Shown: positions 195 through 39,774 of the stretch, piece by piece
How the letters are laid out: each line of letters opens with the position of its first letter
Position numbering within the stretch: the stretch's first letter is position 1
Source: a bacterium
Lineage (GTDB): Bacteria > Patescibacteriota > Patescibacteriia > UBA9934 > GWF2-40-263
Length of the DNA stretch: 39,774 nt
Assembly: GCA_020057555.1 (NCBI GenBank)
Contig: JAGVFR010000010.1
Span: 1-39,774, forward strand
Reading direction: 5' to 3'
Program-made: the position numbers and the translations under genes
Notes under the pieces: model-generated
The model's database searches: none
What the model was told of the DNA's origin: nothing
The model's input: only the letters and a program-made list of their open reading frames with translations

Positions 195-3100
195 TCACGT
201 CACTTTCACATTTTGCCGTCCAACCAAGGCCGCAATCTCGTCCACCATCTCATCAGAAATCAAAACAGAATAATCAGTTTCGATTTGTCTAACTCGCCCA
301 CCGGATTCAACAAGCAAACAAACTGAAGTCTGACCGGGCGATCTTTGTAATATCTCGCGCAATTGTGACACTAACTCCGGAGCTGGATTTCCTTGAAGCG
401 CGATCGAAAGTGTTCCGATTATTACAGGAGCTTGAACAACGACAGTTTTTGGATCAGCCCATTGACCTTGAGAAAGCATTTGGACAAGTTGTGGAAGTTG
501 ATCTTCCGTATACCCAATAAGTCCATTTGCCAATAAACTCAATTCACCATTTCGTCGAGACACTTTCGCGGAAACAAGTGTTAGTTGATCGAGTTGTAAT
601 GAAGATTTTGATCGAGCAAAGACTTCAGGGAAAAGCACAAGTTCCACAATACTTGTTGCATCTTCAACACTTACAAATGCCATTGGCTCTCCTTTTTTTG
701 TAATTATTTCTTTTATAGCTGTTATAACTCCACCACAATGAATCAATTTACTGCTTGGATGATCTTTGACTTTCGCGCACGGAACAATTAGCGTCCCCAA
801 AACACTCGCGCTTTGTTCAAATGGATGCGCGCTAAGATAAAGACCTAACAATTCTTTTTCCCATGCAAGAAGTTCTTGGATTCCTGCCGGTTCTGTTTCA
901 CGAAGTGTGATTGCGGAGTCCATCACGGTCGGGGATAATGAAAACAAACTTTGTTGGTTTGATGAAATCTCTTTTTGAATAGATTTATTGTGCATCAAAA
1001 TTCTATCAACGTTCTCAAAAAGTTGACGTCTCTCTCCAAAACGATCAAGTGCTCCGGATTTTATAAGAGCCTCAAGCGACTTTTTATTAAACGCGTGATG
1101 GGAGATGCGTCCTGCAAAATCAGATAAATCTTTGAACAACCCATTGTTTTTTCTTTCTGTAATAATTGACGCGACAACTTCTTCTCCTAAATTTTTCACG
1201 ACAAGCAAACCAAAACGAATCTGTTTGTCATTCATGAAAGTAAAATCCTTCCTTGATTCATTTATGTCAGGAGACAAAACATCAATTCCAAGGCGTTCGC
1301 ATTCGTGAACTGCTTCAGCAATTTTTTCTAAATCACCAGCCTCGGCAGTCATGAGCGCTGTCATGTATTCGGCTGGAAAATTAGCTTTCATGTACGCGGT
1401 TTGATAAGCGACCATTCCGTAACTCGCGGCATGGCTCTTGTTAAAACCGTAAGCCGCAAACGGTTCGATAAGTTTCCAAAGCTGACGAGCCTTGTCGTCC
1501 GAAAGTCCGTGCGCAACAAACCCTTCAAGCAATTTTATTTTTTGCATTGCCATTTCAGCTGGAATTTTCTTTCCCATTGCTTTACGAAGTTTGTCAGCTT
1601 CAAGCCATGAGTAACCAGCCAAATGAATTGCAGTAAGCATAACATCGTCTTGATACACAATGACTCCGTATGACATTTTCAAAATCGGTTCCATGCGCGG
1701 ATCAAGATATGAAATAAGCGACGTATCGTGTTTACGTTTGATGTATTCAGGAATTGATTCAATAGGGCCAGGACGATAAAGCGCGACCATCGCCATCAAG
1801 TCCTCAACACGCTCCGGCTTCAAATCCATGAGATACTTTGTCATTCCTTCTCCATTCAACTGAAACACACCCATTGTGTGGCCTTTTGCAAGAAGGTTAA
1901 AAGTCTTTTTGTCGTTGATTGGAATGCGTTCAATATCAATCTCGATTCCTTTCAATTTTTTCACAAGAGCAACCGCGTCTCCCAAAATCGACAAATTTCG
2001 AATTCCAAGAAAATCCATTTTAACAAGACCGGCTGTTTCAACAGCGTGCATTTCATATTGAGTGATAACTTTTCCTTCACGAGTATCGATTTGAAGCGGA
2101 GTGAAATCCGTAAGATCAGTTGGCGCAATGACTGCTCCTGCCGCGTGAATTGAAACATGGCGAGCACATCCCTCGATTTGTTTTGCAAGATCAATAATAC
2201 GTCGCACGTTTGCGTCAGTATCGAATTTCTTTTTTAGATCAGGCGCTTCATTGAGCGCGCGAGTGAGTGTCATTGGAAATCCTTGCGAACCCATTGGAAC
2301 AAGTTTTGCAATCTCATCTACCATTGGATATGGAAACCCAAACGCGCGTCCGACATCGCGAACAGAACCACGCGCGAGCATTGTTCCAAAAGTACAAATC
2401 TGTGAAACTTTTTCCTTTCCGTATTTGCATCGAACATAATCCAAAACTTCATCACGACGGTTATCAGCAAAGTCAGTATCAATATCAGGAGCTGACGGAC
2501 GTTCCGGATTCAAAAAACGTTCAAATGGCAACTCGTAAGTTAAAGGATTGATCGATGAAATTCCTATTCCGTAACTCACAAGCGATCCTGCGGCTGAACC
2601 ACGCGTTGTTGTAACAATTCCATTTGATCTTGCCCAATTGATAAAATCAGAAACAATCAAAAAGTATGGACAAAAACCTTTTTGATCAATGATTTCCAAC
2701 TCATACGCGAGACGTTGTTTCATTACGTCCGTAAGAGGACCTTCTTTTTCTGCGAGTTGTTGTTCAGCGCGTTGCGTTAAAACTTGTCTGAATGTTTGCC
2801 CTTCCGGAATTTCAAATTTAGGAAAATTCCATTTTCCAAGTTCAAGTTCAAGTTGACAACGGTCCGCAATGTGACGAGTATTTTCAATCGCTTCTGGAAC
2901 ATCGGCAAAACGTTCTTCCATATACTGCGCGCTCACCATTGACGCGTCAAAATCGTATGGATTGATTCTCTCAAAATGTTCAAGTGTCTTTCCGCCTTTA
3001 ATACAATTCAAAATTTTCCAAGCCTCAGCATCTTGCGGCTTGAGATATAAAGTATTTTTCGTCGCGACAATCGGCACATTCATCTTTTTCCCAAGTTCAA

Positions 3101-3689
3101 TCAGTTGCGCATTCGTACTTTCTTGTTCTGCAATTTCTGGCCGATCAACAAGTTCTAGAAAAAAATTCCCATCACCGAATATCTCGACATACTCTTTAAT
3201 AAGTTGTTCCACCCTCTCGGCCTTCTTGGTCATCTCGGTCATTCCTCTTATTGCTTCATCAATCTCACCTTGATATCCACCTGAAAGTGCGATCAATCCT
3301 TTTGAATACTGACGCAAAACTTCCAAATCAATTCTTGGCTTGTAATAAAATCCTTCAAGAAATCCGATTGAGGAAAGATGAATCAAATTTCGATAACCTT
3401 CTTCGTTTTGCGCAAGACAAACAAGACGAAATGATTTTGTATCAATGTGCGCGCGTTTCAAATGACGTCCTTCGCGCGAAAGATAAAAATCAACTCCAAT
3501 GATTGGTTTGATTCCTGCGTCTTTTGCTTTTTGATAAAATTCCATCACCCCATACATCGCGCCATTGTCAGTGAGTGCAACAGCGTCCATTTCGCATGCT
3601 TTAACATGCGAAATAAGCTCTTTAATTTTCGGAAGAGCTTCAAGAAGCGAATAATGAGAATGGGTGTGAAGGTGGACGAAGCGAGACAT
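195..3689 (-). CDS. dnaE: DNA polymerase III alpha subunit
   Basis: Replicative polymerase catalytic subunit, 1164 aa, full length for bacterial DnaE. The N-terminal PHP domain opens with RFVHLHTHSHYSLLEA. The polymerase core carries the paired aspartates in PDIDTDFADNRRDEV and the third aspartate in KMDFLGIRNLS. A helix-hairpin-helix region and an OB fold (KKGEPMAFVSVEDATS) follow near the C-terminus. The reading frame extends upstream to 3758, but the start at 3689 is preferred because homology begins there; the extra codons are a low-complexity leader containing a microrepeat. No Shine-Dalgarno sequence precedes the start. It is separated from the upstream small membrane protein gene by a terminator at 3770-3801, so it probably has its own promoter; a weak candidate (TTGATT, 17 bases, TAACCT) lies in the gap. 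Confidence 0.97.
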   Translation of the reverse strand: MSRFVHLHTHSHYSLLEALPKIKELISHVKACEMDAVALTDNGAMYGVMEFYQKAKDAGIKPIIGVDFYLSREGRHLKRAHIDTKSFRLVCLAQNEEGYRNLIHLSSIGFLEGFYYKPRIDLEVLRQYSKGLIALSGGYQGEIDEAIRGMTEMTKKAERVEQLIKEYVEIFGDGNFFLELVDRPEIAEQESTNAQLIELGKKMNVPIVATKNTLYLKPQDAEAWKILNCIKGGKTLEHFERINPYDFDASMVSAQYMEERFADVPEAIENTRHIADRCQLELELGKWNFPKFEIPEGQTFRQVLTQRAEQQLAEKEGPLTDVMKQRLAYELEIIDQKGFCPYFLIVSDFINWARSNGIVTTTRGSAAGSLVSYGIGISSINPLTYELPFERFLNPERPSAPDIDTDFADNRRDEVLDYVRCKYGKEKVSQICTFGTMLARGSVRDVGRAFGFPYPMVDEIAKLVPMGSQGFPMTLTRALNEAPDLKKKFDTDANVRRIIDLAKQIEGCARHVSIHAAGAVIAPTDLTDFTPLQIDTREGKVITQYEMHAVETAGLVKMDFLGIRNLSILGDAVALVKKLKGIEIDIERIPINDKKTFNLLAKGHTMGVFQLNGEGMTKYLMDLKPERVEDLMAMVALYRPGPIESIPEYIKRKHDTSLISYLDPRMEPILKMSYGVIVYQDDVMLTAIHLAGYSWLEADKLRKAMGKKIPAEMAMQKIKLLEGFVAHGLSDDKARQLWKLIEPFAAYGFNKSHAASYGMVAYQTAYMKANFPAEYMTALMTAEAGDLEKIAEAVHECERLGIDVLSPDINESRKDFTFMNDKQIRFGLLVVKNLGEEVVASIITERKNNGLFKDLSDFAGRISHHAFNKKSLEALIKSGALDRFGERRQLFENVDRILMHNKSIQKEISSNQQSLFSLSPTVMDSAITLRETEPAGIQELLAWEKELLGLYLSAHPFEQSASVLGTLIVPCAKVKDHPSSKLIHCGGVITAIKEIITKKGEPMAFVSVEDATSIVELVLFPEVFARSKSSLQLDQLTLVSAKVSRRNGELSLLANGLIGYTEDQLPQLVQMLSQGQWADPKTVVVQAPVIIGTLSIALQGNPAPELVSQLREILQRSPGQTSVCLLVESGGRVRQIETDYSVLISDEMVDEIAALVGRQNVKVT

Positions 3690-3717
3690 AGGGAAAGGGC
3701 TAAAAGGACCAAGATGG
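3690..3717 (-). repeat. Pyrimidine-rich leader microrepeat abutting the dnaE start
   Basis: On the minus strand the 28 bases before the dnaE ATG read as a pyrimidine-rich string containing TCTTGGTCCTTTTAG. It is nearly identical, and equally spaced, to the leader of the small membrane protein gene (4118-4145). It matches the complement of the 9-base tandem units inside pheT. Confidence 0.6.
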
Positions 3718-3769
3718 CATGAAGGAAGACAGCTTGAGGTTACCATTTTCGAGTCCATGAATCAAAATC

Positions 3770-3801
3770 AAAAAGAGGACGTTGTATCTTTTGTCGTCCT
3801 C
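3770..3801 (-). terminator. Rho-independent terminator after the small membrane protein gene
   Basis: GAGGACG (3775-3781) and CGTCCTC (3795-3801) form a 7-bp stem, followed on the minus strand by TTTTTGATTTTG. It lies between the small membrane protein gene and dnaE. Confidence 0.75.
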
Positions 3802-3805
3802 TTCC

Positions 3806-3837
3806 TTTGCTACTTTTCTATTTTGCTACTTTTCTAT
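3806..3837 (-). repeat. Two tandem copies of a 16-base unit over a stop codon
   Basis: TTTGCTACTTTTCTAT occurs twice in perfect tandem. On the minus strand the upstream copy encodes the last residues (RKVA) of the small membrane protein, whose TAG stop (3818-3820) lies in the other copy. The unit resembles the AGTAG-type repeats at 16589-16697. Confidence 0.7.
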
Positions 3838-4117
3838 TTTTTTTCCCCTTTTCCAATCGTTTTTCAACAATATACTCCATTCCTTTTGCTGCTAATTGAA
3901 CCACGACTCCCAAAGACGAAGTGGCTGTTTCAAATTTTGCCTGAATACCAGAAAGCGCTGATTCAACCTTGTGCATCACCTCTTTTCCTTCATTCATGGT
4001 TTCATTCACGTTACGCAACATTGACGCCATCTGCCACAAGAGCCAAAAAATCGCGGCAGTGAGCCATAGCGCACAGAAAGCCAGAACAATGTACAAAATA
4101 TCTAAAGGTGAAAACAT
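3818..4117 (-). CDS. Small single-pass membrane protein with coiled-coil tail (DUF948-like)
   Basis: A 99-aa protein. Residues 3-30 (roughly SPLDILYIVLAF to FWLLWQM) form one long hydrophobic segment. An amphipathic, heptad-like helix follows (NVNETMNEGKEVMHKVESALSGIQ), then a lysine-rich end. This architecture resembles DUF948-type proteins, which have no assigned reaction; the family link is inference from shape. The start at 4117 is chosen because it precedes the membrane segment directly; the frame runs up to 4141. The gene lies 29 bases after pheT in the same direction and is followed by a terminator. The 3' end is made of a tandem 16-base repeat, so the last residues are probably repeat-derived. 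Confidence 0.75.
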   Translation of the reverse strand: MFSPLDILYIVLAFCALWLTAAIFWLLWQMASMLRNVNETMNEGKEVMHKVESALSGIQAKFETATSSLGVVVQLAAKGMEYIVEKRLEKGKKNRKVAK

Positions 4118-4145
4118 AGAAGAAAGGACTAAAAGGACCAAGAGG
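4118..4145 (-). repeat. Pyrimidine-rich leader microrepeat before the small membrane protein gene
   Basis: The minus strand contains CCTCTTGGTCCTTTTAG directly after the pheT stop and ending at the next ATG. It is the sister of the dnaE leader at 3690-3717. Its complement (AAAAGGACCAAGAGG) is present as a perfect 15-base match inside the pheT coding strand. Confidence 0.6.
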
Positions 4146-4146
4146 T

Positions 4147-6540
4147 CTATGAACGAAGTATAGCATGAAATTCTTCTTTCAGCACGTAACGAATTTTTTC
4201 GACTTCTTGATCAACTTCTTTTGATTCTAATGTTCGTTCATTAGATCGAAATGATAAATGAATCGCAAGAGATTTTTTTCCTTCGTCAACACTTTTGCCT
4301 CGATAAACATCGAACAACTCAATTCGTTCAAGAAGTGTCGAAGTTTTTTCCAACTTTTCAATAATCGTTTCGTATTCAGTTCGTTCATCAAGAACAAATG
4401 CTAAATCACGTTTCACTTCTGGAAATTGTGAAATTGGTTTGAATGATTTGATCGATGTACATTTCAAAAAAAATTCTGGTTCTCGAATGTCGATCAAAAC
4501 GCAAGTAACATCTAAACCAAAAATTTTCACAAATCTGTCGCTCACTTGACCAATCTCGCCAACACAACTTTTACCAATATAGATGCTTGCAAGTCGGCCA
4601 TCGTGATAATGCGCGATGTAGTCAGACGGATCGCGTGAACGCTCAACTGACCAATCATTAATCCCAAGTTCTCGCATTAGTCGCTCGAGTGCACCTTTTG
4701 CGCGCAAAAATAATTCACGTCCATCTTTTCCATAGCAAGCCATGATGAGATTTAATGGTTCATCAGGAAGATCGCCCTTTTTTGGAAGGTACACCGGCGC
4801 GATCTCAAACAAATCCGCTTCTGGAAAATGATGCTGGTTCTGTTCGATCGCTGTCAACATGCTTGGAACAAGTGACGGACGCATGAATTCAAATTCACTG
4901 CTTAATGGATTACGCAAAACAACCGCATCATCTTTTTTCAACCCATAAGCAGTATGCTGTTTTTCGGAGATAAACGAGTATGAATAAACTTCTGTAAAAC
5001 CAGCGCCTTTCAAAATTTCTTTTGTTCGACGTTGAAACTTAATCGCTTGATCTTCTTGAATCAGCTGAATTTCACCAGCCGGAAAAACAGATGGAAAATT
5101 TTCATATCCATACACACGAGCAATCTCTTCAATAAAATCAACTGATGCCTCAATGTCATGGTCGCGCCAGTAAGGGACGGCAATGGAGTGATTGGGCTCA
5201 ACAACAAATCCCAATCGTTCCAAAATCTCAACCATCTTTTTTTCTTCCATTTTAATTCCCATAAGCGTTTGGGCTTTTTGCGGATCAAAAGGAAACACGC
5301 GTGGTTCGTATGGTTTTGCTTGCTCTGTCATCATTGATGAAGCAACATTTCCTCCTGTCAATTCCACGATAAGTTCAATGGCGCGTGCGAGCGCTGGTTC
5401 AGTCGATTCTGTTGAAAGACCTTTTTCAAACAACAATTGCGAATCTGAATAAAGATTCAACGCGCGCGCTGTGCGTCGAACAGAAACAGGATCAAATGTC
5501 GCGCTTTCAATCAAAACACGCGTTGTGTTTTCTGTTGTTGCTGTTTCTTCACCGCCCATTACCCCTGCGATTGCAACAGGTTTTTTAGCGTCAGCGATCA
5601 CAAGCATGTCATGTGAAAATTCATAATCCTTTCCATCAAGCGCTTTCATCTTCTCACCTTTTTTTGCTTTGCGAACAATAATTTTTTCACCATCAAGTTT
5701 ATCAGCGTCAAACGCGTGAAGCGGTTGGCCATATTCATGCAAAACGTAATTTGTAATATCAACGACATTGTTGATCGGACGATGACCAGCAAGTAGTAAA
5801 CGCTTTTGCAACCACCATGGCGATGGGGCAACTTTAACGTTCTCAATCAAAATCACAGAATACTTTGGACAAAGTTCTGGTTCTTTCACATCAATCGTAA
5901 ATTTCTTGTCTCTTCCTCTTGGCCCTCTTGGTCCTTTTGGTCCTTTTAGACCTTCACCTGTAACCGCCGCCCCTTCCCTCGCCTGCCCAATAATACTCAT
6001 GCAGTCCACGCGATTTGATGTAACTTCAATATCAAAAACAACGTCATCAAGTTCAAGCGCTTTTACAATTGATGTTCCAGGTTTTGCATCAGTGAGTTCT
6101 GAAATATCCCAAATCTCGTGCTCTCCATGCGGTAATTTTTCAAAACCGATTTCCTCAACAGCACAAATCATGCCATGACTTTCTACTCCGCGAATTTTTG
6201 TTTTCACAAGTTCTACTAAGTCCCCTTCTCCATGCCATTTAACTTTTGCCCCAGGAAGTCCAACCACAACTCGTTGTCCTTGTGATAAATTCACTCCTCC
6301 ACAAACAATTTCTACTGTTTCTTTTCCAATGTCAGTCATTGCTATTTTTAACTTATCAGCATTTGGATGAGGTTTTACTTCTTTCACAAAACCAACAACT
6401 ATTTTTTCGAAACGTTCTGAAAGTTTATCAATTCGCTCAATAGAATTTCCGATCGCAGTTGTTTTGCGCGCGAATTCTTCCGGTGAAAAATTGGTATCAA
6501 GATATTCTTTAATCCAATTGTAGGAAGCTAGAATGTTCAT
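4147..6540 (-). CDS. pheT: Phenylalanyl-tRNA synthetase beta subunit
   Basis: Large subunit of the heterotetrameric enzyme that charges tRNA-Phe; 797 aa, normal length. The N-terminal tRNA-binding OB domain is visible (VGFVKEVKPHPNADKLKIA). The B3/B4 editing region (NVVDITNYVLHEYGQPLHAFD), the B5 domain (DFIEEIARVYGYENFP) and a C-terminal anticodon-binding domain (KPISQFPEVKRDLAFVLDE) follow. The start MNILASYNWIKEYL is typical. The gene follows pheS by one base, an obvious pheST operon. An oddity is a Gly-Pro-Lys/Arg run, GLKGPKGPRGPRG, near residue 203. It is encoded by four 9-base tandem units and sits in the linker between the N-terminal and B3/B4 domains; it looks like an in-frame microrepeat insertion. 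Confidence 0.97.
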   Translation of the reverse strand: MNILASYNWIKEYLDTNFSPEEFARKTTAIGNSIERIDKLSERFEKIVVGFVKEVKPHPNADKLKIAMTDIGKETVEIVCGGVNLSQGQRVVVGLPGAKVKWHGEGDLVELVKTKIRGVESHGMICAVEEIGFEKLPHGEHEIWDISELTDAKPGTSIVKALELDDVVFDIEVTSNRVDCMSIIGQAREGAAVTGEGLKGPKGPRGPRGRDKKFTIDVKEPELCPKYSVILIENVKVAPSPWWLQKRLLLAGHRPINNVVDITNYVLHEYGQPLHAFDADKLDGEKIIVRKAKKGEKMKALDGKDYEFSHDMLVIADAKKPVAIAGVMGGEETATTENTTRVLIESATFDPVSVRRTARALNLYSDSQLLFEKGLSTESTEPALARAIELIVELTGGNVASSMMTEQAKPYEPRVFPFDPQKAQTLMGIKMEEKKMVEILERLGFVVEPNHSIAVPYWRDHDIEASVDFIEEIARVYGYENFPSVFPAGEIQLIQEDQAIKFQRRTKEILKGAGFTEVYSYSFISEKQHTAYGLKKDDAVVLRNPLSSEFEFMRPSLVPSMLTAIEQNQHHFPEADLFEIAPVYLPKKGDLPDEPLNLIMACYGKDGRELFLRAKGALERLMRELGINDWSVERSRDPSDYIAHYHDGRLASIYIGKSCVGEIGQVSDRFVKIFGLDVTCVLIDIREPEFFLKCTSIKSFKPISQFPEVKRDLAFVLDERTEYETIIEKLEKTSTLLERIELFDVYRGKSVDEGKKSLAIHLSFRSNERTLESKEVDQEVEKIRYVLKEEFHAILRS
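5914..5949 (-). repeat. Four 9-base tandem units in frame within pheT
   Basis: Plus-strand units are TCCTCTTGG, CCCTCTTGG, TCCTTTTGG and TCCTTTTAG. On the coding strand they read as a collagen-like LKGPKGPRGPRG. The units match the leader repeats at 3690-3717 and 4118-4145 in the opposite orientation. Confidence 0.85.
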
Positions 6541-16588: not shown

Positions 16589-16697
16589 TAGAGCAGCAAA
16601 GTAGCAGAGGGAAGACACAGACAAATTTTAGGAATCTGTTTTTCACTTCCCGCCCCCCCCTTACTACTTACTACTCCTCTACTTTACTACTAATTCT
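16589..16697. repeat. Imperfect inverted repeat of AGTAG-type microrepeats, with an 8-C run
   Basis: The 109-base gap starts with purine-rich AGTAGTAGAGCAGC words right after the stop codon and ends with their pyrimidine complement (TACTACTTACTACTCC) directly before the next ATG. A weak internal hairpin ACAGA/TCTGT followed by TTTTTC may terminate transcription. A run of eight C at 16653-16660 could be length-variable. Confidence 0.6.
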
Positions 16698-17345
16698 ATG
16701 AATCGCTGGCTTCCATTCATCATTATTGGTTTTTTTACAATCATAATTTTTCTTTTCTATTCTGTTTTCTTGCGCCCAGTTGATTTAGAACGACTTCAAA
16801 AAGAGCAACAAAAAATTTCAATAACAGAACCCACAGTTACGTTTGTAAACCCATCACGCGGAGCAAAAATTCCAAAAGTTACAATCATTGAGTTCGGCGA
16901 TTTTGAATGCGACGCGTGTCGTGATTTAATGCCGGCTCTTGAAACCGCACTCAAAACATATCCAGATGATGTCAGACTTGTTTGGAAAGATTTGCCAAAT
17001 GACTCGGCGCATGAACAAGCAATACCAGCTTCAGTAGCAGCGCATTGTGCTGACAGACAAGGCTCGTTTTGGCAATATCACGATGTGTTGTTTCAACGTC
17101 AGGGATATTTGTCAGAAGATCAATACGCGCAAATCGCGAGTGAACTAAAACTCGATACTGAAAGATTCACCGCGTGTGTTCAGGATCAAGACACACTTCC
17201 GATTGTGCAAAAAGACAAAGATGAAGGCCTCGCGCTTGGACTTGTCGCAACCCCAACAATTTTTGTTAATAAAGAAAAATTCGTGGGAGCTATTAATGTG
17301 GAAGAATTATTAAAAATCATTCAGCAAGAGCTTGTGAAACCGTAA
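16698..17345 (+). CDS. DsbA-like thiol-disulfide oxidoreductase, membrane-anchored
   Basis: A 215-aa thioredoxin-fold protein. The N-terminal membrane anchor or signal is at residues 5-25 (FIIIGFFTIIIFLFYSVFL). The active site CDAC, in EFGDFECDACRDLMP, is near residues 71-74. A helical insertion carries AVAAHCADRQGSFWQYHD. The cis-proline loop reads VATPTIFVN near residue 190. This is the DSBA-like thioredoxin_4 architecture (BdbD/DsbG-like), so it should oxidise or isomerise cysteines outside the membrane. The next gene encodes a Cys-rich exported protein, a plausible substrate. The start directly follows a pyrimidine-rich microrepeat and lacks a Shine-Dalgarno sequence. Confidence 0.9.
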   Translation: MNRWLPFIIIGFFTIIIFLFYSVFLRPVDLERLQKEQQKISITEPTVTFVNPSRGAKIPKVTIIEFGDFECDACRDLMPALETALKTYPDDVRLVWKDLPNDSAHEQAIPASVAAHCADRQGSFWQYHDVLFQRQGYLSEDQYAQIASELKLDTERFTACVQDQDTLPIVQKDKDEGLALGLVATPTIFVNKEKFVGAINVEELLKIIQQELVKP

Positions 17346-38502: not shown

Positions 38503-38531
38503 TTTTTATCACAATTCCATCGCAAAGTCAA
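38503..38531 (-). promoter_or_regulatory. Promoter of the exported protein-kinase operon
   Basis: On the minus strand TTGACT (38526-38531), a 17-base spacer and TAAAAA (38503-38508). A small hairpin (CTCGC/GCGAG, 38478-38497) lies in the leader just before the ribosome binding site. Confidence 0.5.
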
Positions 38532-39013
38532 TGTAATGTAATTCACCTTGTAATCTACTTGTATTTCCATATTTCATAAGCCCTAAATAAGACTGAATTG
38601 TTTCCGAAGTTGAATATGCTTCAATTCTCCGTAACATCCGTCGTTTTGTAACAGTCCGTAATACTCGATGATCTGTAAAATTAACCCAACCAAGAAAATC
38701 AACACCTGAAGCGATTGTTTTCAAAAAGATTTTATTTGATGGACTCAAACAATTTTTTATCCTCCGACAGAAACACGAAATCATAAGTATATCGAACGAA
38801 GTATCTTATTTTGAGTTTGTGTTTCACAAATTGATCAAACCGATTCATATACACATTCGAAAAAATTGCAATCCGTAAATGCGATGCAATCAAATTCTTC
38901 TTGCTCATTCTTTTTGAAACAAACTCGATCGAACAAAACAAATTTATTGCATTATCCGAACCGCTTGCAGAGGTCGGAAGAATGCTTGGTGGTTGGCTTG
39001 GACAACTGACCAA
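38509..39013 (-). pseudogene. Remnant of a DGR-type reverse transcriptase
   Basis: Two minus-strand frames together cover the C-terminal part of a DGR-clade reverse transcriptase. The first (38732-39013) contains IFSNVYMNRFDQFVKHKLK and then YFVRYTYDFVFLSEDKK. The second (38509-38784) continues with ASGVDFLGWVNFTDHRVL, RTVTKRRMLRRIE and YLGLMKYGNT, the conserved thumb end. The N-terminal fingers and palm motifs are missing, a frameshift or deletion lies near 38740-38785, and the YADD box reads YTYD. ACT TAT GAT differs from GCT GAT GAT by one base in each of two codons and loses a catalytic Asp. It lies just downstream of the template repeat, the normal place for a DGR reverse transcriptase. 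Confidence 0.88.
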
Positions 39014-39068
39014 GTCTCCTCAAAAACAAAACTCTCCCAACAATACAGCGGGAGAGAAATGAAGAGAG

Positions 39069-39194
39069 TTGCGAGCATCGCCGCGGGATTCTGGTCATTC
39101 CAGTCATTGTCGAGCCAGTTGTAGTTCCAGTTCCACGCACCGTCGTTCCAGTACAGGTAGCGAACGTACAGGTTGCCATTCGGGTTGCGATAAA
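39069..39194 (-). repeat. DGR template repeat (TR)
   Basis: A 126-bp sequence, adenine-rich in AAC/AAT codons on the minus strand, aligns gap-free with 39558-39683. It holds 33 adenines; 21 are replaced in the variable repeat and no other base differs. Translated it reads like the target (YRNPNGNLYVRYLYWNDG), but it is a template rather than a gene: no promoter or full-length protein belongs to it. Confidence 0.95.
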
Positions 39195-39268
39195 TATATG
39201 AAACACCGTCCATGCCACCACCCTTCGAATACTCTCTGGGTTGAATCGAATTCGGTATCTTTAATACC

Positions 39269-39409
39269 TTAGTGTTTCATACCAAGTATCTTCATTTTTG
39301 GATGAAGGTTCTGCATACGCGACGCTGTTTGGAAACTTTCATCCCAAACACTCTGCACGTACGGATACCAGTTTCGGTGGCCAACGATTTTCAGCGTTGA
39401 CTGATTCAC
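39269..39409 (-). CDS. Possible 46-aa ORF or decayed accessory gene between TR and VR
   Basis: A GTG-initiated frame, MNQSTLKIVGHRNWYPYVQS and onward, ends MKILGMKH. GGAAG lies close upstream of the GTG. In many DGRs an accessory gene (avd) lies between target and TR, but this frame is far shorter than Avd and has no motif I can match. It may be a remnant. Apart from it and the terminator, the 39195-39546 gap shows nothing else clear. Confidence 0.25.
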   Translation of the reverse strand: MNQSTLKIVGHRNWYPYVQSVWDESFQTASRMQNLHPKMKILGMKH

Positions 39410-39552: not shown

Positions 39553-39774
39553 GACACTTGCGAGCACCGCCGCGGGACGCCGGTCATTCCAGCCACGGTC
39601 GAGCCAGTCGCAGCCCCAGTCCCACGCACCGCCGCCCCAGCACAGGCAGCGAACGCACAGGCTGCCATACGGGTAGCGATAAACCGTACCCCAGAAGTAG
39701 ATGTAGTGGGTATTCCCGTTCTCGTCGACCTTCCAGTCTTCGGGGATGATCTCGGGGTGAGCGATGAGGTAGTC
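39547..39774 (-). CDS. DGR target protein, C-terminal 75 residues (partial, runs off right edge)
   Basis: The final 75 codons of a gene whose start lies beyond the window. The fixed part reads EIIPEDWKVDENGNTHYIYF. The diversified C-terminus reads YRYPYGSLCVRCLCWGGGAW and ends PAAVLASVP. The Trp/Gly-rich pattern with variable residues spaced between fixed Trp, Leu and Asp residues is typical of the C-type-lectin-like binding domains used by DGR targets in Patescibacteria. Codon use here is clearly more GC-rich than in the housekeeping genes, suggesting different ancestry. Its ligand and location in the cell are unknown. Confidence 0.9.
   Translation of the reverse strand, partial: DYLIAHPEIIPEDWKVDENGNTHYIYFWGTVYRYPYGSLCVRCLCWGGGAWDWGCDWLDRGWNDRRPAAVLASVP
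39558..39683 (-). repeat. DGR variable repeat (VR)
   Basis: A 126-bp partner of the TR at 39069-39194. There are 21 mismatches: on the coding strand 17 are A to G, two A to C and two A to T. The 9 bases at its 3' end are identical to the TR and would be part of the initiation-of-mutagenic-homing region. Confidence 0.95.

Follow-up and report, generated by a model that had tools for sequence, protein, structure and literature searches.

A DGR relic with a closely matching template repeat in a Patescibacteria genome, and simple-sequence repeats at the avd and reverse transcriptase genes of related DGRs

The stretch of DNA analysed here (the window) is contig C6, 39,774 b long, of a genome assembly of 848,922 b in 30 contigs (96% complete). 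Parts of a diversity-generating retroelement (DGR) were found at its right end, where the 3' end of a target gene, a template repeat (TR) and a reverse transcriptase (RT) remnant lie on the minus strand (Table 1). The locus is a DGR relic rather than a complete DGR: an RT with a YxDD motif is absent, the remnant having lost its N-terminal half and carrying YTYD, and Avd is incomplete, with ~40 C-terminal profile positions left. A full-length copy of the target gene is located on contig C17 (L002:353-958, 90% DNA identity over 218 nt), and its protein product had no convincing match in Pfam or NCBIfam. Here and in many relative loci, avd is antisense between TR and RT (38897-39213 in the window), so that a TR-RT transcript would contain antisense avd. 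The TR leader and the spacer hairpin also recur in relative loci (31 and 27 matching rows, respectively, duplicates included).

Table 1. Features of the DGR relic at the right end of the window
Feature	Position	Strand	Evidence
C-terminal piece of RT remnant, ~62 codons, frame 2	38551..38733	-	tblastn, C17 RT residues 264-320, 41-42%; 71% to L068
RT remnant, palm piece with YxDD region (frame 1), ~49 codons	38738..38887	-	tblastn, C17 RT residues 197-245, 45%; 60% to L068
YTYD replacing Y-x-D-D	about 38780..38791	-	sequence
Deletion junction	38887..38897	no strand	9 nt here vs ~820 nt in intact homologue; two blastn blocks with L131
Remnant of avd (accessory variability determinant), limited to its 3' part; divergent from RT	38897..39062	+	NF033474, bAvd and DivGenRetAVD matches
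Hairpin just downstream of TR (spacer of TR transcript)	39032..39056	-	inverted arms, by eye
TR core, 126 nt	39069..39194	-	comparison with VRs
Conserved TR leader	39195..39320	-	DGR leaders of G002 and G110 78-80% identical in DNA; many others with weaker similarity
Variable region (VR) of target gene	39558..39683	-	21/33 A sites changed, 0/93 others
DGR target gene, 3' end, cut by contig end	39547..39774	-	ORF; full-length copy on C17

Alignment of the RT remnant to the intact RT on C17 of the same genome (tblastn) placed positions 38881-38738 of the minus strand on residues 197-245 (45% identity) and positions 38733-38551, in a different frame, on residues 264-320. Residues 1-196 of 343 (C17 RT numbering) are missing, and a net deletion of ~50 nt, not a multiple of three, separates the two pieces. 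The catalytic motif reads YTDD in the C17 RT and YADD in a same-genus homologue. An earlier note on this DNA, made from the sequence alone, had described the cis RT as frameshifted, devoid of its N-terminal half and inactivated by loss of an Asp in a YTYD motif; all of this was borne out, and the window RT is dead on account of deletion, frameshift and the Asp-to-Tyr loss. The span assigned to the RT in that note, up to 39013, was too long: positions 38897-39013 match the 3' part of avd on the plus strand, and the 93-aa minus-strand ORF found there starts in antisense avd. The avd remnant covers NF033474 profile positions 64-103 at C6:38880-38999 (plus strand), and was recognised by Pfam bAvd (E=0.0011) and NCBIfam DivGenRetAVD (E=1.1e-5).

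An intact same-genus DGR was available for comparison from Ca. Uhrbacteria isolate NC_groundwater_421 (G002), with a YADD-bearing RT and an avd in frame (L131); the intact RT locus L068 of this isolate is identical in sequence to L133. A blastn comparison of L131 with the window gave two blocks (query 346-878 and 888-1223, corresponding to subject 1449-1963 and 2785-3174), which meet at window positions 38887-38897, with ~820 nt between them in G002. Because the intact DGR aligns on both sides of the junction, the comparison shows a single ~0.8-kb deletion, which took the N-terminal parts of both avd and RT and joined what was left of avd, its 3' part, to the C-terminal remainder of RT. This joint loss had escaped the earlier description of a broken RT. 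It is most improbable that the deletion, the frameshift and YTYD are assembly errors: contig breaks at DGR repeats do occur in this assembly, but the junction is away from the TR/VR repeat, and three lesions together with partial loss of two opposite-strand genes make up a coherent deletion. The genes flanking the locus have orthologues in G002 and in a second genome, G001, whose contig ends there; no DGR was found beside the orthologues in G002. Since those orthologues adjoin no DGR, the cassette is apparently either not old at the window site or was lost in G002.

Over the 126-nt core, 21 of 33 adenines in the TR were changed in the window VR and none of the 93 other positions (chance of all 21 changes falling on A, 8e-16). 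Comparison with a VR on C17 gave 11/33 adenine and 1/93 non-adenine changes, and with the 3' part of a VR on C22 13/20 and 1/53, the latter beside a 3-nt insertion. The window TR is thereby shown to fit three VRs (C6, C17 and C22) with changes almost exclusively at A. The match outside adenines had rightly been noted before for the window VR; that the TR appears to serve at least three VRs had been missed. All three contigs end in or near DGR repeats. The C22 VR (L059, G000:C22, 1-328) is situated at the contig start, shortly before genes for a ribosomal protein and an elongation factor.

The earlier note had proposed a search for an intact DGR RT elsewhere in the genome. Across the 848,922 b, the only RT passing the RVT_1 cut-off was that on C17, a full-length enzyme encoded next to an intact avd. 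It belongs to a different sub-clade (41-45% identity to the window remnant) and has its own, different TR (TR2), whose VR is present for 25 nt before the contig end. The window TR leader and spacer had no blastn match at the C17 locus, and comparison of leader motifs between the two RT sub-clades revealed some resemblance by eye and weak word enrichment. A weak match to the window TR on C9 turned out to be a separate DGR with target, TR, avd and RT (L058, G000:C9:93000-98537, 2811-4568), also absent from the earlier description. The middle of its RT is deleted, with the start and the C-terminal part joined in frame, and its avd is intact and in frame, with a C10 tract. An automated in-locus TR search found none at C17 or C9; compared directly, the C9 TR/VR pair had 17/34 adenine and 8/126 non-adenine changes, drift that fits a system which died some time ago. 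The avd places tied to DGR copies or remnants in this genome are on C17, C9 and C6, with weak matches on C19, C23 and C18.

The earlier note had left a choice between recent diversification and an RT acting in trans, both in keeping with a TR and VR still matched outside A, and the trans option now has a candidate in the intact RT and avd on C17 and in window-TR matches to VRs on two other contigs. Trans use of the window TR is plausible; we give about an even chance that RT-Avd from elsewhere (C17 encodes the only intact pair in the assembly) still copies this template or did so until recently. Relative to L032/L068, the RT remnant showed ~13 more differences to five outgroups over ~216 first and second codon positions, and its branch was longer in a branch comparison (a rough estimate from 110 codons, with third positions set aside as saturated). 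If this excess, obtained by simple arithmetic, is post-death drift, ~5-6 changes would be expected in the 93 non-A sites of the TR, against 0 seen. Homing after the deletion is favoured because these sites are unchanged despite the apparent drift of the RT remnant, although relaxed selection before the deletion would mimic such drift. Action of the C17 RT on the window TR has against it the other sub-clade, the enzyme's own TR and the differing flanks, which make cross-recognition putative.

It is somewhat unlikely that the DGR is instead frozen, with avd and rt deleted recently, homing stopped and the last variants being fixed in the absence of trans activity. RT and avd are indeed gone, the C17 RT differs in both sub-clade and TR, and the remote VRs, otherwise matching the window TR outside adenines, carry one non-A mismatch each, with a 3-nt insertion in that on C22. 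A frozen state sits poorly, however, with an RT remnant that has apparently drifted by ~6% at first and second positions next to a TR with 0/93 non-A changes, and with C9, where the RT is likewise deleted and TR and VR did drift (8/126). Less probable again is a structural variant or missing contig, in which an intact cis or cognate RT exists in other cells or in an unassembled stretch and the assembly represents the deleted allele. The three VR-bearing contigs ending in or near DGR repeats, the 30-contig, 96% complete assembly and the variants with an intact RT at one DGR locus in the available part of Dore et al. 2024 (PMC10907252) all fit such a variant; against it, the assembly holds no intact RT of the window sub-clade and the remnant has several lesions rather than one fresh breakpoint. 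Trans use of DGR parts is already known, as far as the available text of PMC10907252 goes. Those portions on Thiohalocapsa PB-PSB1, and corresponding portions on cyanobacterial remote VPs (PMC7517822), describe incomplete loci and remote VRs that differ from a distant TR at few or no non-A sites, as observed here; unlike in the systems so described, several VRs here appear to be served by an RT-less TR, and the one intact RT in the assembly goes with a different TR.

The C17 RT contains a G9 tract (C17:43519-43527) at residue ~180, just before GLPIGNLTSQ (GGGGGGGGG, in frame). Five close relatives of this RT (L041, L042, L043, L045 and L051) have G10 or G11 at the same site; four are split into two frames at the tract, and L051 is cut by its contig end. 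Another, L044, has G12 and is in frame. Length alone does not account for the frame of L040, which has G7 and is in frame, or of L046, which has G9 and is out of frame; further local differences in length must be present in both. In most of the group's remaining RTs, a run of G precedes the RT start by 20-60 nt; on the opposite strand it forms a C run close to where the divergent avd begins (peptide M...PPP...LPVLQKLK). In other loci, (GA)n, (AG)n, (CT)n, (TG)n or (ATTG)n occupies the same two places.

A repeat in the RT-avd interval was detected in 129 of 160 unique Patescibacteria RT loci, which are related by descent and so are not independent draws. It was placed at the avd start in 104, mid-RT in 22 and elsewhere in RT in 3; 30 had none at the thresholds used and one was at a contig edge. 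No locus had a repeat at both main sites, where ~14 would be expected under independence (104 x 22 / 160). The 160 loci, counted after leaving out duplicates and loci without the RT N-terminus, came from four sets: A, 100 loci from part of the RT match list (96 unique with RT N-terminus counted); B, a phylum sample of the best 30 of a longer list (29 unique); C, 20 loci chosen largely for a split match and hence biased to OFF; and D, 23 of 30 loci from named genomes (15 counted). Set A alone (n=96) gave 62 at the avd start, 12 mid-RT, 3 elsewhere in RT, 18 with none and one at a contig edge, and under slightly looser rules 23/30 loci of the phylum sample had a repeat. Repeat density was 58-fold higher inside the RT-avd interval (129 in 191,404 b) than outside (5 in 431,672 b), and 69 G/C runs of at least 8 were counted in 98 segments, against 1.6 expected. 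None of 21 control RTs had a repeat (Oscillospiraceae, Saccharibacteria, Tenericutes, Bacilli and Clostridiales loci, and 16 viral contigs). The viral contigs had been considered as a source of close alleles; their RTs proved distant (27-33%) and were kept as controls. Taxa with a tract include Uhr-, Staskawicz-, Yanofsky-, Harrison-, Taylor-, Nomura-, Vogel- and Doudnabacteria. In one relative (G009), four of the five G>=9 runs listed are 21-47 nt from its four RTs, and the genome studied here has three G>=8 runs, two at DGR avd or rt genes (C17 and C9) and a third that is intergenic in the window.

The reading frame of avd was surveyed in 97 loci with upstream DNA (including two duplicates, L040 and L117, both in the group without a tract): 64 had an avd tract, 29 did not and in 4 no avd was found. 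Among the 64, avd was in frame from an ATG (ON) in 24 and out of frame (OFF) in 40, a call made from ATG starts alone, so that some OFF avd may be made from GTG or TTG. Both wrong offsets occurred among OFF loci, with an otherwise long open body in nearly all. Mid-RT tract loci were in frame in 5 of 22 cases (L002, L037, L044, L211 and L227) and out of frame in 17, the latter inflated by set C. All tract lengths are single consensus values from assemblies. Alleles 84-90% alike differed in their tracts (G12 vs (ATTG)7, G10 vs G12, GA20 vs GA18, G10 vs G11), and two pairs, 85% and 89% alike, had equal lengths (G9/G9 and G11/G11). The avd-RT intervals of L068 and L098 are 89.6% alike over 384 nt, with G12 and (ATTG)7, respectively, at nearly the same place, where one repeat type has apparently been replaced by another.

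The scan of avd-OFF loci recovered TR/VR pairs in 35 of 38 (606/1120 A and 42/3281 non-A changed, 1.3%), and that of avd-ON loci in 19 of 22 (327/627 and 23/1746, 1.3%). For RT tracts, pairs were recovered in 6 of 8 OFF loci (110/175 A, 4/576 non-A) and in 3 of 4 ON loci (50/85 A, 4/295 non-A). The TR finder demands A-biased pairs and would miss decayed ones, a bias answered in part by the equal recovery from ON and OFF loci. Judged by their equally fresh, A-only TR/VR pairs, OFF does not mean dead, and because frame-broken avd and RT genes at repeats have TR/VR as fresh as in-frame ones, equating a frameshift with decay is an unsafe rule in this group. The window RT was itself considered as a phase-OFF copy; this was rejected, its lesions being large deletions away from any repeat, and the copy is truly deleted as opposed to switched off.

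We consider it very probable that DGR hypermutation in Patescibacteria is phase-variable, with most DGRs having exactly one slippage tract, in avd or rt, which would flip the mutator ON and OFF and leave a minority of mutating cells in populations. The repeat pattern recurs across relatives, and from it we infer slipped-strand phase variation and its reversibility. This reading is preferred because the repeat unit varies, there are two possible places in two genes needed by the DGR, the repeat occurs once per DGR, and about one third are in frame. The length of a repeat at the avd start, or in rt before GLPIGNLTSQ, sets the reading frame, and slippage during replication would turn mutagenic homing on and off within a lineage. 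The C17 RT is a G9 allele reading ON. For the window as a whole, an orphan template used in trans combined with a slippage-switched avd or rt is the explanation we lean towards with modest confidence; that the C17 RT, the sole RT left and tract-bearing, is the master switch for the orphan template and its three VRs is conceivable and on balance doubtful.

Slippery runs can cause slippage, and the repeats could be recoding sites (programmed ribosomal frameshifting or transcriptional slippage), with genes that look OFF being expressed at all times; equally fresh TR/VR in OFF and ON loci would result from constant expression too. Recoding nevertheless predicts a constant offset and unit, whereas 0, +1 and +2 all occur with one and the same unit and the units differ (G, GA/AG, CT, ATTG, TG), one being a tetranucleotide, which makes it quite improbable. 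Alternatively, the 5' tract, which on the strand of the TR-RT transcript immediately precedes the RT start, could function as RNA within that transcript and play no part in the avd frame. With avd antisense between TR and RT, the tract does sit in that transcript; yet 22 loci have the repeat inside rt instead and none has both, avd homology reaches the tract, and ATGs precede it, so that such a role is highly improbable.

Phase variation by simple-sequence contingency loci is known in Campylobacter, Neisseria and Haemophilus. The tracts described here resemble those loci in their G8-13, di- and tetranucleotide repeats, in their position in the 5' part of a gene or inside it, and in the mixed frames between alleles; unlike there, the switch would act on the mutator (the Avd or RT that a DGR encodes), rather than on a surface structure or methyltransferase. 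With DGRs of the BPP-1 type (target/VR, TR, Avd, RT), the present systems share A-only TR/VR changes, an Avd-family gene and an RT which in the relatives matches the solved RT 8ub7 (E=6.9e-37), which we take to be the BPP-1 DGR RT. They differ from that type in a divergent avd, antisense between TR and RT, in the deletion of RT and avd in the window, and in the frame-setting simple-sequence repeat in avd or rt of relatives.

To our knowledge, there is as yet little understanding of how a cell restrains a mutator that targets its own genes. If the phase-variation reading is true, a slippage tract in the mutator's own gene would let OFF cells keep a working target and ON cells explore, without a regulator; many split- or dead-looking DGR genes in assemblies would merely be OFF, and DGR searches demanding an intact RT or Avd would miss OFF systems. 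The window locus by itself matters less than the repeat finding, and as a template without its own machinery and with freshly-copied-looking VRs it would make a clean case for a trans-use test. No report of DGR phase variation by repeats was found in the literature searched, which included the available portions of PMC8144416, PMC6642488, PMC10907252, PMC10053308, PMC7517822, PMC8987985 and PMC11868660; the surveys PMC5758913 and doi 10.1038/nmicrobiol.2017.45 may mention it.

Several further runs were observed. The intergenic G/C run of 8 in the window (16653-16660) lies ~38 nt before a gene that is DsbA-like by eye (16698-17345). At the position of the avd tract, the second DGR of G002 (L025/L117, G002:C10:165385-166323) carries GGGGTGGGGG, a tract that is interrupted and perhaps locked. 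Further G runs in relatives varied in location; some were intergenic or on contigs that are GC-rich and may be foreign. One contig (L125, G024:C96) has three G10-G11 runs (at 1817, 2309 and 3108), each ~30 nt before a small ORF, for which promoter-type phase variation outside DGRs is possible.
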